Shown here one piece after another: positions 59,012 to 64,000 of a stretch of DNA of 64,000 nt. The stretch lies in the NCBI RefSeq assembly GCF_037126435.1, contig NZ_CP147020.1, positions 4,415,001 to 4,479,000 on the forward strand. Reading direction: 5' to 3'. Below the pieces are notes generated by a model that did not search any database, was not told the DNA's origin, and worked only from the letters and a program-made list of their open reading frames with translations. The position numbers and the translations under genes were made by a program. Position 1 is the first letter of the stretch, and each line of letters opens with the position of its first letter. The DNA comes from Bernardetia sp. ABR2-2B (GTDB lineage Bacteria; Bacteroidota; Bacteroidia; Cytophagales; Bernardetiaceae).

Positions 59012-60754
59012 ATGTCTGTACAACTCATTCGCCATTATCAAAGAGAACTTAGCAAAGCAAAAGATTTGGGAGTTAGAAATGAAATGGGGCTAAAACGTCC
59101 GTTTTCAAATCTTTTGTATGCTTTATGTCAGACCAAAAATCTAACGTTGGTAGAAGAAATTAGTATTAAAAATGCTGAAGGCAAAACGATTCGTCCAGAC
59201 GGAATTGTGAAAGGTGTAAATAGACTAGACTGGGGCTACTGGGAATCTAAAGACGAAGCAGACGACATAGAAGACGAAATAAAAAAGAAATTTGCCAAAG
59301 GTTATCCCAACGATAATATCATTTTTGAAGATACCAATCAAGCCATTTTATACCAAAATGGAAAACGTGTCGCTACGGCTGCTATGCAAGACGAAGGCAA
59401 GGATTTGTATTCACTTTTGCAGCAATTTGTCAGTTTTGAAAGACCTGAATATACGCTTTTCAGACAAGCCTTAGAAGATTTTAAAGTAGATATTCCTCCC
59501 ATTATAAAGGAACTTCGTGCGCTGATGGACGAAGAAGCCAAGACAAATACTGATTTTGTAAAGGCAAGAAATAAATTTTTACAAATCTGTCAGGATAGTA
59601 TTAATCCAGAGATTACTAAAAAAGATGTTCGTGAAATGCTCGTGCAGCATATTCTGACACAAGATATTTTCAATACCATTTTTGATGAAGCTGATTTTCA
59701 TCGTTCCAATAATATTGCTTCCGAATTGGGAAATGTCTTGAAAACTTTTTTCACAAAGAATATCAAGAAGAATTTTTATCCCAAAATCCGAAATTATTAT
59801 AGCACCATCAAAACCGTCGCTGCAAGAATAGAAGATGTTAGGGAAAAACAAACGTTTTTGAAGGTCATTTATGAAGATTTTTATAAAGCCTACAATCCGA
59901 AAGGAGCTGACCGTTTGGGAATTGTCTATACGCCTAACGAAATTGTACGTTTTATGATTGAGAGTACAGACCATCTTTTGTATGAGCATTTTGGAAAAGA
60001 ACTTTTGAGCGAAGGCGTAGAAATTCTTGACCCAGCCACAGGAACAGGAACATTTATTACCGATTTGATAGATTATTTTCCTTCTTCGAAAAAGGAACAG
60101 ATTAGACACAAATACCAAAACGAACTCCACGCCAACGAAGTCAGTATTTTGCCGTATTATATTGCCAATCTAAATATTGAATATGCCTACCAACAGAAAA
60201 CAGGAGAGTACAAAGAATTTGAAAACCTTGTCTTTGTAGATACGCTAGATAATATGGGTTTTGGCTTTACAGGAAAACAAAATGAACTTTTTACAAGTCT
60301 TTCGGCTGAAAACCTAGAGCGTATCAAGAAACAAAACAGCAAAAAAATATCGGTCATTATTGGAAACCCTCCCTACAATGCCAACCAACAAAACGAAAAC
60401 GACAACAATAAAAACAGAACCTATCCAGAAATAGACAAACGCATAAAAGCAACTTATATAAAGGAAAGTACGGCGCAGAAAACGAAAGTTTATGATATGT
60501 ATTCTCGTTTTTATCGTTGGGCAATGGATAGGCTAGGAGAGGAAGGAATTATTGCTTTTGTTACTAATCGTAGTTTTATTGATAGCAGAACTTTTGATGG
60601 TTTCCGAAAATGTATTAAAGAGGAATTTGACCATGTTTATATTGTAGATACAAAATCAGATGTACGAGCAAATCCAAAAATTGCAGGAACGACACATAAT
60701 GTGTTTGGTATTCAGACAGGTGTAGCCATCATGTTTTTGATAAGAAAAAAGTAA
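59012..60754 (+). CDS. Type IIG/ISP-like restriction-modification enzyme, N-terminal half (nuclease plus N6-adenine methylase)
   Basis: 580 residues. The N-terminal nuclease has RPDGIVKGVNRLDWGYWESKDE (about 65-90), a PD...ExK site. A helical region follows, then the methyltransferase: GIVYTPNEIVRFMIEST and motif I DPATGTGTFITDLI (about 345-360), HANEVSILPYYIANLNIEYAY and motif IV IGNPPYNANQQ (about 450-460), then VYDMYSRFYRWAMDRLGEEG. It ends at NVFGIQTGVAIMFLIRKK, where the family would continue into the specificity domain. That part is the gene at 61824. The break holds a transposase cassette. The two pieces may work together as a split enzyme (inference). Confidence 0.88.
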   Translation: MSVQLIRHYQRELSKAKDLGVRNEMGLKRPFSNLLYALCQTKNLTLVEEISIKNAEGKTIRPDGIVKGVNRLDWGYWESKDEADDIEDEIKKKFAKGYPNDNIIFEDTNQAILYQNGKRVATAAMQDEGKDLYSLLQQFVSFERPEYTLFRQALEDFKVDIPPIIKELRALMDEEAKTNTDFVKARNKFLQICQDSINPEITKKDVREMLVQHILTQDIFNTIFDEADFHRSNNIASELGNVLKTFFTKNIKKNFYPKIRNYYSTIKTVAARIEDVREKQTFLKVIYEDFYKAYNPKGADRLGIVYTPNEIVRFMIESTDHLLYEHFGKELLSEGVEILDPATGTGTFITDLIDYFPSSKKEQIRHKYQNELHANEVSILPYYIANLNIEYAYQQKTGEYKEFENLVFVDTLDNMGFGFTGKQNELFTSLSAENLERIKKQNSKKISVIIGNPPYNANQQNENDNNKNRTYPEIDKRIKATYIKESTAQKTKVYDMYSRFYRWAMDRLGEEGIIAFVTNRSFIDSRTFDGFRKCIKEEFDHVYIVDTKSDVRANPKIAGTTHNVFGIQTGVAIMFLIRKK

Positions 60755-60770
60755 AAAGACTTTGATACTT

Positions 60771-60878
60771 ATTTTCACTCGGTCAGACCTACGGTACAGA
60801 CCGAATGAAAATAGAAGATAGAACAAAATATATTTTGCATTTTTGCCAAGTCTGTACCGTAGGTCTGACTTGGCAAAA
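60771..60878. repeat. Inverted palindrome pair upstream of the RAYT-like gene
   Basis: Head 1, 60771-60814: ATTTTCActcGGTC pairs with GACCgaaTGAAAAT around the loop AGACCTACGGTACA. Head 2, 60841-60878: TTTTGCCAAGTC pairs with GACTTGGCAAAA around TGTACCGTAGGTCT. The two loops are exact reverse complements of each other, while the stems differ. The unit is therefore a two-headed REP element. Confidence 0.8.
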
Positions 60879-60918
60879 ATATCATTTCAAAATTTCATAA
60901 ATAAAACTATTTATAAAA

Positions 60919-61515
60919 ATGCACTTTGAATCTGAAACACTTTATCATATTTATAATCAAGGAAATAATCAAGAAACTATTTTTTTAGAAAAAGCTGATT
61001 ACGTCGTTTTTTTATATAAAATCAAAGAAAGGATAGCTCCCTTTTGTCAGATTATAAATTATTGCTTAATGCCAAATCATTATCATTTTATAATAAATGC
61101 AACTGAAGAATCAAGTGAATTAATAAAATTAGGAGGAATAAATATCAATAAACTAACCAATGGTTTTAGATTACTCAATAGTTTGTATGCCAACCAATTT
61201 AATGAAAAGTACAAGCGTTCAGGCTCTCTATTTCGTCAAAAAACAAAAGCTAAAAGTTTAGAATATTCTCACAAAGATTATCCTTTTATTTGCTTTAATT
61301 ATGTTCATCAAAATCCTATTAAAGCAGGGTTATGCGAAAAAATGGAAGACTGGGAATTTAGTTCTTTTCGTGATTACTGGGGTGTCAGAAATGGAAAGTT
61401 AATAAATAAAGAATTTGCTTTTGAGTTGATTGATATAAGTGAAAACAAAGAGATTTTTTATGAAGATTCTTATTGCAATATTCTTGATGATGATATTAAA
61501 GAGCTATACTTATAA
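60919..61515 (+). CDS. Y1/HUH transposase, REP-associated (RAYT-like)
   Basis: 198 residues. MHFESETLYHIYNQGNNQE is the start, CLMPNHYHFII carries the HUH metal motif (His about 54 and 56), and ICFNYVHQNPIKAGL the catalytic tyrosine (about 128) with its usual Y-x3-NP context. GSLFRQKTKAKSLE is typical too. Such single-strand transposases act on REP palindromes. Here the gene is flanked on both sides by inverted palindromes and lies inside a restriction-modification gene. The frame is intact, so it may be active. Confidence 0.93.
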   Translation: MHFESETLYHIYNQGNNQETIFLEKADYVVFLYKIKERIAPFCQIINYCLMPNHYHFIINATEESSELIKLGGININKLTNGFRLLNSLYANQFNEKYKRSGSLFRQKTKAKSLEYSHKDYPFICFNYVHQNPIKAGLCEKMEDWEFSSFRDYWGVRNGKLINKEFAFELIDISENKEIFYEDSYCNILDDDIKELYL

Positions 61516-61520
61516 AAATA

Positions 61521-61802
61521 AACTATTACCGTTAAGAATTAGAAATGCTTATTTTCAATAGGTCAGACCCTCGGTACAGACCTGTTGAAAATAGAGGATA
61601 AAATAAAATATGTTTTGCATTTTTACTAAGTCTGTATCATAGGTCTGACTTGGCAAAAATAAACTATTACCATTAAGAATTAGAAATGCTTATTTTCAAT
61701 AGGTCAGACCTTCGGTACAGACCTGTTGAAAATAGAGGATAAAATAAAATATGTTTTGCATTTTTACTAAGCCTGTATCATAGGTCTGACTTAGTAAAAA
61801 TA
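61521..61802. repeat. Tandem pair of 141-bp units, each a two-headed palindrome
   Basis: Unit 1 (61521-61661) and unit 2 (61662-61802) differ at few positions. Each begins AACTATTACC, has head 1 with loop AGACC(C/T)TCGGTACA and head 2 with loop TGTATCATAGGTCT. Base changes in the stems are partly compensated: unit 2 has TTTTTACTAAGC facing ACTTAGTAAAAA. Confidence 0.8.
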
Positions 61803-61823
61803 AGCTGTTTAAAATAAAAAAAA

Positions 61824-63182
61824 ATGAAAAAAGCCAAAATATACTATTTCACACTCACAGATGAACAACGAAAAGAAGAAAAGTTAGAGTGGTTTCAAGA
61901 CACAAAGTTTAATAAAATCCCTTTTGAGTTAATTCAACCTAGCAAAAAAAATAACTGGATTAATCTAGCTGATAACGATTTTGAGGAATTAATGCCATTA
62001 ATTGATAAAAAAAATCAAAATACTTTATTTGAGTTTTCTTCTTTAGGAGTTTCTACAAATAGAGATGAATGGGTTTATGATTTTGATGAGAAAAGTTTAA
62101 AGGATAAAATGAAGTATTTTGTAAAAGAATACAATAATCTTTTGAAGAAAAATGATAAATCTTGGAAAGGTACGATTAAGTGGAGCAGAGATTTAAAGAA
62201 AAAATTTGAACGAAAACAAATACTAGAATTGCAAAATGATTTACTAGTAGAAAGTAACTATAGACCATTTATAAAAAAGAAATGGTATGCAGAAAAGGTA
62301 TTGAATGATGTTTTTACACAAAACCATTATGATATTTTTGGAGAAGATTTACGACAAGAGAACAGATTGATAACTGTGTATAGTTTAGCATCATCTCACT
62401 TACTTTCTTGTTTGTCTACGAATCTCAATTTTGATTTAGCTTTCTTAAAACAAGGTAATGGAGGTGTTTTTTGCCTCCCCCTCTACCGTTACACAAAAGA
62501 AGGCAAAAGAATAGATAATATCACGCAATGGGCATTGAATGAATTTCGTAGTCATTATTCCGTAGGTTCGCAGCGTAGTGCGTCCGATGATTCCGTAGAT
62601 TCGCACCGTCGTACGTATCAAAACACAGAGCCACACGACGGTATGGCTGTACGGGAATTGGAGCGTGAAGATATTTTTCATTATGTGTATGGCGTTCTGC
62701 ACAATCCAGCGTACCGTAAAAAATATGAATTGAATCTAAAAAGGGAGTTTCCACGCATTCCATTTTATGAAGATTTTTGGTTTTGGGCAGAAAAAGGAAA
62801 GGAATTAATGGAATTGCATCTTGATTATGAAAATATAGAAAAATATGAGTTAGAGCGAGAAGAAAAACCTCTCAAAAGTGGCAGTCTCAATAAAGCAAAA
62901 CTCAAAGCCGACAAGATAAAAAATGAAATTGTTTTGGATAATCTGACCACGCTAAAAAATATCCCTGCTGTGGCTTGGGACTACAAATTGGGCAATAGAA
63001 GTGCGCTAGAGTGGATTCTTGACCAGTACAAAGAAAAGAAACCAAGAGATACAACGATTAGAGAAAAATTCAATACCTACAAATTTGAAGATTATAAAGA
63101 AGAAGTAATTGAATTGTTGCAGCGTGTTTGTACGGTAAGTGTAAAGACGATGAAGATTGTTGAGGAAATGGAATCCAAATAA
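61824..63182 (+). CDS. Type IIG/ISP-like restriction-modification enzyme, C-terminal specificity half
   Basis: 452 residues starting MKKAKIYYFTLTDEQRKEEK at a usable ATG. It contains NWINLADNDFEELMPL, NYRPFIKKKWYAEKVLNDV and FCLPLYRYTKEG, then the typical end block HYVYGVLHNPAYRKKYELNL, FPRIPFYEDFWFWAEKG and PAVAWDYKLGNRSALEWILD, all as in the C-terminal domain of long nuclease-methylases. About 30 residues near 247-277 (VGSQRSASDDSVDSHRRTYQ and PHDGMAVRE) come from an inserted palindrome and are absent from the usual pattern. No catalytic motif of its own; it needs the N-terminal half. Confidence 0.87.
   Translation: MKKAKIYYFTLTDEQRKEEKLEWFQDTKFNKIPFELIQPSKKNNWINLADNDFEELMPLIDKKNQNTLFEFSSLGVSTNRDEWVYDFDEKSLKDKMKYFVKEYNNLLKKNDKSWKGTIKWSRDLKKKFERKQILELQNDLLVESNYRPFIKKKWYAEKVLNDVFTQNHYDIFGEDLRQENRLITVYSLASSHLLSCLSTNLNFDLAFLKQGNGGVFCLPLYRYTKEGKRIDNITQWALNEFRSHYSVGSQRSASDDSVDSHRRTYQNTEPHDGMAVRELEREDIFHYVYGVLHNPAYRKKYELNLKREFPRIPFYEDFWFWAEKGKELMELHLDYENIEKYELEREEKPLKSGSLNKAKLKADKIKNEIVLDNLTTLKNIPAVAWDYKLGNRSALEWILDQYKEKKPRDTTIREKFNTYKFEDYKEEVIELLQRVCTVSVKTMKIVEEMESK
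62561..62654 (+). repeat. GACG-loop palindrome inserted in frame in the specificity half
   Basis: From CGTAGGTTCGCAGCG to CTGTACG. Inside are GATTCGCAC-CGTC-GTACGTATC and AGCCACAC-GACG-GTATGGCT, plus an older decayed copy (62561-62594). The same architecture recurs at 63207, 63419 and 63697. It is translated as part of the protein. Confidence 0.8.
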
Positions 63183-63206
63183 ATACGCACCCGTATAAAT
63201 GTATAA

Positions 63207-63267
63207 CGTAGATTCGCACCGTCGTGCGTATCAAAACACAGAGACGCACGACGGTGCGTCTGTACGA
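63207..63267. repeat. GACG-loop palindrome, intergenic copy
   Basis: CGTAGATTCGCACCGTCGTG ... GCACGACGGTGCGTCTGTAC: two inverted hairpin heads, GATTCGCAC-CGTC-GTGCGTATC and AGACGCAC-GACG-GTGCGTCT, separated by AAAACACAG. This is the least altered copy and a model for the others. Confidence 0.85.
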
Positions 63268-63290
63268 ATGAAATTAATTTTTAAGTGATT

Positions 63291-64000
63291 ATGGCAAAAT
63301 ATAAAGGAAAATATCGTTCAGAATCGCATCGTTTGAAAGGGTGGGATTATAGCAGTGAAGCAATTTATTTTATTACATTTTGTGTGCAAGATTTCGAATG
63401 TTTATTTGGCGATGTTATCGTAGATTCGCACCATCGTGCGAATCTTGAAAATAATGCGAATCCTAAAAATAATGAAATTCAGAATAATGAGATTCGGGAT
63501 AATGAGACGCACGACGGTGCGTCTGTACGGATATATGATGAATCTGCAAGAATGAATTTGAATCCGTTTGGGAAAATTGTAGAAGAAGAAATTCTAAAAT
63601 CAATAGAAATACGAAATAATTGGATATTTCACGAATGGGTAGTGATGCCCAATCATGTGCATATGCTGATAGAAATTGAATTTAATGATAATAATACCGT
63701 ACAGACGCACCGTGGTAAGTCTCAAAATAAAAATAATACAATTCACAACAATACGATTCATGACGATACGATTCACGACAATACAATTCACGACGGTGCG
63801 ATTCACGACGGTGCGATTCACGACGGTGCGATTCACGACGGTGCGATTCACGACGGTGAATCGCTACTACATCGCCAACCCAATTCTATTTCTTCATTTA
63901 TCGGAATCTTCAAAACCGTCGTAACAAAACAAATAAACGAATTACGTAATACAAAAGGTGAAAGAATATGGCAACGCAACTATCACGACCACATCGTTAG
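63291..64000 (+). CDS. Second RAYT-like Y1/HUH transposase carrying palindromes in its own coding sequence (gene continues beyond window end)
   Basis: At least 236 codons, open to the window edge. It starts MAKYKGKYRSESHRLKGWDY and shows EAIYFITFCVQDFECLFGD, FGKIVEEEILKS, the HUH motif in VVMPNHVHMLIEI (His about 122 and 124), SISSFIGIFKTVVTKQINEL and RIWQRNYHDHIV, the usual order in RAYTs. The catalytic tyrosine region is probably outside the window. Two palindrome insertions, at residues about 43-80 and 136-193, add roughly 95 residues. The frame is kept throughout, so the insertions are tolerated at least at the reading-frame level. The promoter region holds a further palindrome copy. Confidence 0.9.
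   Translation, partial: MAKYKGKYRSESHRLKGWDYSSEAIYFITFCVQDFECLFGDVIVDSHHRANLENNANPKNNEIQNNEIRDNETHDGASVRIYDESARMNLNPFGKIVEEEILKSIEIRNNWIFHEWVVMPNHVHMLIEIEFNDNNTVQTHRGKSQNKNNTIHNNTIHDDTIHDNTIHDGAIHDGAIHDGAIHDGAIHDGESLLHRQPNSISSFIGIFKTVVTKQINELRNTKGERIWQRNYHDHIV
63419..63530 (+). repeat. GACG-loop palindrome inside the second RAYT gene (copy 3)
   Basis: Heads GATTCGCAC-CATC-GTGCGAATC (perfect 9-bp stem) and AGACGCAC-GACG-GTGCGTCT. The middle has expanded with AAT/GAAATTC-type repeats (residues NANPKNNEIQNNEIRDNE). Confidence 0.8.
63697..63868 (+). repeat. GACG-loop palindrome with 15-bp tandem array inside the second RAYT gene (copy 4)
   Basis: Starts with CCGTACAGACGCACCGTGG and ends with GCGATTCAC-GACG-GTGAATCGC. 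Between them, 63739-63858 holds eight 15-bp units (CGATTCACGACGGTG and variants), translated as the pentapeptide TIHDG/AIHDG. The first units are diverged, the last four identical. Confidence 0.85.

Follow-up and report, generated by a model that had tools for sequence, protein, structure and literature searches.

The window analysed here is a stretch of 64,000 nucleotides of the Bernardetia sp. ABR2-2B genome (contig NZ_CP147020.1, forward-strand positions 4,415,001 to 4,479,000). Close to its downstream end lies a family of short palindromes that resemble repetitive extragenic palindromes (REPs) and occur in the C-terminal specificity half of a Type ISP restriction-modification enzyme, in the spacer that follows it, and in the gene for RAYT2, a REP-associated tyrosine transposase (RAYT). 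A hairpin scan of both strands gave nine units of 25 nt between 62562 and 63867, each made up of GTA plus one base (the foot), an 8-nt arm, a 4-nt loop (CGTC or close to it), the complementary arm and one further base. The host genes are listed below with the nine units, each of which was found by the scan and matched by a covariance model, R1.

61824..63182, plus strand: Type ISP restriction-modification enzyme, C-terminal specificity half, 452 aa (PF18135 Type_ISP_C, E 9.8e-86)
62562..62586, plus strand: REP unit r1, in frame, V-G-S-Q-R-S-A-S (R1 E 2.1e-4)
62595..62619, plus strand: REP unit r2, in frame, V-D-S-H-R-R-T-Y
62628..62652, minus strand: REP unit r3, inverted, in frame, E-P-H-D-G-M-A-V
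63208..63232, plus strand: REP unit r4, left half of the inverted pair (REPIN) in the spacer
63241..63265, minus strand: REP unit r5, right half of the spacer REPIN
63291..64000, continuing past the window end, plus strand: RAYT2, TnpA-REP-like HuH/Y1 transposase (NF047646, E 5.3e-17, 62.1 bits, short of the cut-off of 80)
63420..63444, plus strand: REP unit r6, RAYT2 site A, V-D-S-H-H-R-A-N
63504..63528, minus strand: REP unit r7, RAYT2 site A, E-T-H-D-G-A-S-V
63699..63723, plus strand: REP unit r8, RAYT2 site B, V-Q-T-H-R-G-K-S
63741..63858, plus strand: 15-bp tandem repeats resembling one REP arm plus loop, in frame, I-H-D-G-A repeats that run into r9 (repeat search, 15-nt spacing)
63843..63867, minus strand: REP unit r9, RAYT2 site B, A-I-H-D-G-E-S-L

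The units fall into four modules, at 62562-62652 in the restriction gene, 63208-63265 in the spacer, and 63420-63528 and 63699-63867 in RAYT2. An earlier note, made from the letters of the window, had described four such modules within 1.3 kb and had stated that the copies inside genes keep the frame and become peptide; both observations hold, as all seven in-gene units begin in register 0 of their host (relative to the ATG codons at 61824 and 63291) and the other two form the spacer REPIN. The note's two hairpins per module are present as inverted pairs, as in REPINs (r2/r3 with r1 in addition, r4/r5, r6/r7, r8/r9), but the restriction gene carries three units and the total is therefore nine, not eight. 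Likewise, the loops it gave as GACG and CGTC exist but are one loop read on opposite strands, the module being two inverted copies of one 25-nt unit. The pairs r4+r5 and r2+r3, 613 bp apart, are 90% identical across 60 nt. In the last module the unit starts are 144 nt apart and the gap is partly filled by the 15-bp repeats, a stretch that is much shorter in the orthologues of genomes G001 and G006.

With up to three mismatches, GACGCACGACGGTGCGTC matches four places in the window and reached a maximum of 0 matches in 100 dinucleotide shuffles. R1 matched the nine units at E <= 2.1e-4, against E 0.64 for the next best place in the window, although these matches hold by construction, the model containing the nine units. 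A looser scan by hand was unspecific: besides the nine units it matched 20 other places in the window, 29 in total, and 30 shuffles gave 7-18 matches.

The stems differ between copies and nonetheless pair. Stem pairing in the window is 5/8 in the unit at 62562, 6/8 in those at 62595 and 63699, 7/8 in those at 62628 and 63208, and complete in the remaining four, so that the earlier note's statement on pairing stands as regards covariation but applies in full to only four of nine units. For the 24 units at RAYT2 loci of three congeneric species (22 of them distinct), the covariation score was 0.528 compared with 0.168 in shuffles, and none of 500 shuffles reached it; standard pairs occupied 90.3% of cells, against 15.9-50.0% when the partner was slid. 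When 30 units were compared by site, 215 of the 240 stem positions were Watson-Crick pairs, 8 were wobble pairs and 17 were unpaired. Compensated changes occurred in 9 of 22 same-site pairwise comparisons, at 15 positions in all, and at some sites pairing was kept while the peptide changed (ETHDGASV / EIHNSESV; VEMNSRSS / KETHSRVS). At a methionyl-tRNA synthetase (MetRS) site the stems of G000, the genome of the window, and G002 differ, yet both pair. Some units have decayed.

The family is not confined to the locus. A single-sequence genome search had suggested that it was, an outcome attributable to limited sensitivity and overturned when a covariance model built from the 24 units was run against 11 genomes of the family at E <= 1. 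In each genome 150 candidates were scored of the 336-858 found (150 of 500 in G000), and all counts are thus lower bounds. At least 61 matches were obtained in seven of the 11 genomes, 24 at RAYT2 loci and 37 elsewhere; G003, G004, G007 and G008 gave none among their 150 scored candidates each. Each match was read individually to compile the census: of the 37, 21 are coding and 11 extragenic (32 convincing copies), and five were set aside, three for want of a palindrome (G000 2337617, G005 C24:6362, G010 C36) and two that flank another RAYT (G009). Collapsed by site, the convincing copies occupy 14 coding and 8 extragenic places. Copies in the leader of a tatD-like gene were counted as extragenic, though readable as N-terminal extensions, and degenerate copies found by eye stand outside the counts (two units in a G000 Type ISP gene, L078, and one in a G004 regulator). 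In G000 at least eight convincing copies lie away from the nine units of the locus, six of them in coding sequence, in line with the earlier note's expectation of further copies and at odds with the abundant, mainly extragenic distribution usual for REPs. A strict pattern search gave 9, 8, 9 and 5 matches in G000, G001, G002 and G006 with no match in the reversed control of each, and 1, 2 and 1 in G005, G008 and G009, with one control match each in G005 and G010. No model match was seen within about 1.5 kb on either side of nine other Y1-transposase loci of G000.

All 14 coding sites are read on the sense strand (chance 6e-5 if the sites are independent; C333 and C387 are paralogues). Eleven are in register 0, with VxTHSRVS-like peptides, and three in register 1, with SKDxQSCxS-like peptides; when all six frames of a representative dispersed unit were compared, these two proved the most hydrophilic. 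This supplies the listing of copies by gene position and phase that the earlier note had proposed. Hosts shared by G000 and G002 are a winged-helix regulator, an epimerase-domain protein (two units), MetRS, where the unit is placed between the anticodon and tRNA_bind domains, and a protein that we take from its sequence to be aminotransferase-like, with no family call. A 577-aa protein is a further host in G000 and a 203-aa open reading frame (ORF) in G005. G002 adds a PARP-domain protein, three unnamed proteins, two Type ISP paralogues and a Type ISP gene with 11 tandem units of 9-10 residues, the longest array seen. Units in Type ISP specificity domains are found in four genes and two loops.

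Comparison with relatives shows the same sites occupied in some genomes and empty in others. At the restriction-gene site, directly before the (E)DIFHYVY helix of the specificity half, the residues between HY/NY/YY and the (E)DIF helix number 7, 13, 27 and 36 (hand count) for zero units (G003, one; G008, two), one (G006), two (G001) and three (the window). A class-wide search with the window's restriction gene gave matches at E <= 1e-40 in 6 of 294 other genomes; in four of the six, all from other families (G091, G106, G013, G085), the flanking matches lie only 6-9 nt apart, compared with about 31 codons in the window gene. Chains of solved structure related to this half are 7lo5, 5ffj and 4xqk, and 7lo5 has a short loop at the site, query residues 247-277 standing opposite chain residues 840-841. 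In the two G002 Type ISP paralogues the unit lies shortly before the matching helix; the loop without a unit reads EKTKKKGTFAP or similar in all nine other sequences examined (G000, G001 (2), G003 (3), G008, G009, G010). No units stand at the site of the 11-unit array in G001, G003, G004, G005 and G006; in G000 the site contains two degenerate ones. G000 and G002 carry a unit at the regulator site, G004 a degenerate copy and G005 no palindrome (the alignment left out the G007 and G009 homologues). Units are absent from the epimerase linker of G003, G004, G005 and G006. The comparison with empty homologues thus covers hosts other than the 577-aa, PARP-domain, 721-aa, 1115-aa, 1140-aa, aminotransferase-like and 203-aa proteins. 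Where palindrome-free homologues were aligned they also lack the residues, and none kept the residues without the palindrome.

RAYT2 is the candidate agent of movement. The full protein (L014 4286-5110) has 274 aa when read from a GTG at 63285. It carries the motifs NHVH and WQ, and YVDQNP (YIDQNP in G001 and G006) where tnpAREP subclass 2.4 has YIxNNP; the site B units (63699-63867) lie in frame between HuH and Y, as is characteristic of that subclass. When an AlphaFold model of a RAYT2 orthologue (from Cytophagales contig L093, taken as G006:C45) was compared with the PDB, the best fold match was 4er8 (E 1.6e-5, TM-score 0.42/0.55), the structure of a RAYT in complex with a REP hairpin. The core is mostly predicted with a local confidence (pLDDT) above 90, whereas the 10-residue blocks with most REP-encoded residues are predicted at 48-66 (site A 53-66, site B 48-50; the first site A residues fall in a block of 81). 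Close RAYT2 orthologues were found only in G001 and G006 among the 11 family genomes, and in both a REP lies beside as well as inside the gene, an association with a RAYT gene that is expected of REPs.

We consider it probable that the modules form a REP/REPIN family with a GTA(G/C/A) foot that is served by RAYT2 and has been copied into genes. By analogy with RAYTs that cut and rejoin REPs in vitro (PMC8266576), RAYT2, as an HuH/Y1 endonuclease, would recognize foot and hairpin in single-stranded DNA and cut and rejoin units, leading to copies at new places that are densest near its own gene. Copies landing in protein genes would survive if the gene stays open, the frame is hydrophilic and the site is a disordered linker or loop, the peptide then being neutral, while copies in unsuitable frames would be lost. 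Once established, a unit might expand into a tandem array or decay. Its two arms might also change in concert, through substitution of a different unit or through template switching from arm to arm, so that the palindrome stays and the peptide changes.

Several results weigh against this interpretation and call for some caution. Both-sided change was seen at five of eight pair positions, compared with 4.4 in shuffles (231 of 500 reached it), and further pair types numbered 13 against 11.1 (93 of 500), no excess in either case; one-sided changes at orthologous sites (36) outnumber the 15 compensated positions. Where an empty homologue is known the gain in length is smaller than one unit (12 nt in the G002 Type ISP paralogues, 18 nt by hand count for the single unit of G006), which implies that part of the old linker was overwritten, and no clean insertion junction or target-site mark was seen at the sites examined. 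G002 has most dispersed copies, yet its assembly (460 contigs, 92% complete) contains no close RAYT2 orthologue, and the locus itself includes an alternative candidate, RAYT1, roughly 1 kb upstream of r1. The foot at RAYT2 loci is GTAG in 13 of 24 units and GTAC in 11, the REP consensus being GT[AG]G, and GTAA occurs among the dispersed units. The degenerate G004 regulator copy escaped the covariance model. It is conceivable, though we would not favor it, that the palindromes are a few old inherited insertions that no longer move, with arms kept alike by template switching during replication (quasi-palindrome correction). The scarcity of wobble pairs among the stem positions is what copying of one arm onto the other at the DNA level would produce, and both-sided changes at orthologous sites are present (two in the right unit of RAYT2 site A, two in MetRS, one or two in the left ISP_C unit, two in the tatD leader); E. 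coli quasi-palindromes are reported to be mutation hotspots via template switching (PMC7202029). Such switching renews arms but does not disperse them, and dispersal is still required to account for the 14 coding sites, whose genes are mostly unrelated, and for the 60-nt REPIN repeated within the locus.

Function of the in-gene hairpins, either as a single-stranded DNA or mRNA hairpin by which RAYT2 limits its own expression or as a useful flexible linker in the restriction enzyme, seems to us unlikely. It would fit with a survey of 85 RAYT loci (the best 80 of 570 relatives and five from the family; two contigs occur twice), in which an internal hairpin of at least 8 bp was present in 66 of 76 RAYT ORFs, compared with 6.75 expected after codon shuffling, and a footed one in 44 of 71 non-focal ORFs from many phyla, 61 of 66 footed hairpins lying between the HuH and WQ motifs. 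Against it, 10 of the 76 ORFs have no hairpin of 8 bp or more, and the sequence, number and presence of units differ between congeners, some having decayed. A universal fixed register was rejected, GTAG being in register 0 in 27 and in register 1 in 21 of the non-focal cases; none of these 48 has it in the register that puts TAG in frame. Finally, chance pairing of low-complexity linkers, or a peptide motif conserved for protein reasons, is very improbable. Several dispersed copies do lie in low-complexity, length-variable linkers, and an exact CGCACNNNNGTGCG core at G000 5089596, in a gene that is presumably rpsC, was set aside as most likely due to chance. Nevertheless, pairing persists at some sites as peptides change, extragenic copies exist, four related genomes have no model match among the candidates scored, and a covariation score that no shuffle equaled speaks against chance.

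Beyond the family itself, our data allow a tentative proposal, for which we claim less, that RAYT-linked palindromes have become residents of coding DNA, spreading and persisting mainly as hydrophilic linker peptides, being repeatedly renewed in place and yielding linker variants, notably in Type ISP specificity domains. If true, REP biology would be joined to the phenomenon of Rickettsia palindromic elements (RPEs), and the missing mobilizer would be named. The origin and spread of coding palindromes such as RPEs is an old question, and the papers considered here attach no transposase to them. With a candidate enzyme, relatives that form a natural series of zero, one, two and three units at one site, a same-site pair with different paired stems and a clear reading-frame filter, the present family makes entry, expansion, renewal and tolerance of units testable. 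It may also illustrate one route by which restriction-enzyme specificity domains gain in-frame variation in linker length.

The earlier note's likening of an in-frame family beside its probable mobilizer to RPEs is supported, the 14 coding sites away from RAYT2 loci being in-frame palindromes in protein genes. Its suggestion that the phenomenon may be undescribed was too broad: the literature already describes REPs lying in frame within the tnpAREP genes of Cyanobacteria and Bacteroidetes (PMC6006769) and intragenic REPs together with their likeness to RPEs (PMC3733652). We did not find this particular family described among the top-ranked matches of the open-licence literature. In-frame REPs within RAYT genes and intragenic REPs are thus of a known kind, and a dispersed family that is mostly intragenic is the less expected part. 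In subclass 2.4 tnpAREP, as described by Quentin et al. 2018 (PMC6006769), hairpins flank the RAYT and lie in frame at one site between HuH and Y; the present locus differs in a second in-gene site before HuH, in the GTAC foot of 11 of 24 locus units, in the low copy number found and in that most dispersed copies found are coding. The intragenic GTAG/CGTC REPs of Di Nocera et al. 2013 (PMC3733652) are likewise in frame in unrelated genes, thought to be tolerated in linkers, and found as singles, dimers and clusters, with different REPs at about the same recB site of two Xanthomonas species. Those are mostly intergenic, in contrast to the 21 of 32 coding copies here, all sense and in two registers, and CGTC is a terminal tag there but the loop here: the locus feet are GTAG and GTAC, and the terminal CGTC tag which that paper gives for RPEs is not seen. 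Palindromic elements of Rickettsia and Wolbachia (as cited in PMC3733652 and PMC2996958) similarly encode peptides within housekeeping genes, usually in segments without structure; PMC3733652 gives no transposase association for CGTC repeats, R. conorii RPEs included, whereas a RAYT is linked here. PARCEL repeats (Roske et al. 2010, PMC2996958) are also coding and palindromic, in some taxa in mobile-element-associated ORFs, but their units are amphipathic, 25 residues long and arranged in tandem, and many lie in ORFs of unknown function whose products are targeted to the membrane; the units described here have 8 residues, not a 25-residue tandem, and many lie in known enzymes.

Two neighboring genes complete the locus, within which the Type ISP enzyme (59012-63182) consists of two ORFs split by a RAYT.

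59012..60754, plus strand: methylase half of the same Type ISP enzyme, 580 aa (PF22240, PF07669, PF02384)
60919..61515, plus strand: RAYT1, RAYT-like ORF between the enzyme halves (NF047646, E 4.6e-12, 46.1 bits, under the cut-off; no Pfam match at E 0.001)

The two-part arrangement of the enzyme is shared by G001 and G006, in which RAYT2, not RAYT1, occupies the junction between the halves and the TAG stop of the first half is supplied by a REP foot; in G003 the enzyme remains one long ORF. Two different RAYTs at one inter-domain junction may reflect a repeated event. RAYT1 is flanked by a 141-nt repeat with palindromic GGTCAGACC arms (60734-60874, 61514-61654, 61655-61795), and a search of G000, in which 40 of 70 candidates were scored, gave partial copies elsewhere, some as adjacent opposite-strand pairs (near 1326683, 4987164 and 4409378). 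The G000 genome has 11 Y1_Tnp (PF01797) matches at E <= 1, among them RAYT1 and RAYT2, and one other has an internal TAA.

A single REP unit also lies just upstream of a gene that we take to be tatD in G002, G001 and G006 (L197, L198, L200); the stems of G001 and G002 differ there by two both-sided and two one-sided changes. The RAYT of G010 (L051 1498-2316) carries REP-like hairpins of its own (VGADLRVCP / GQTHRSAP) and a long tandem repeat of SPEMTC-type peptide.

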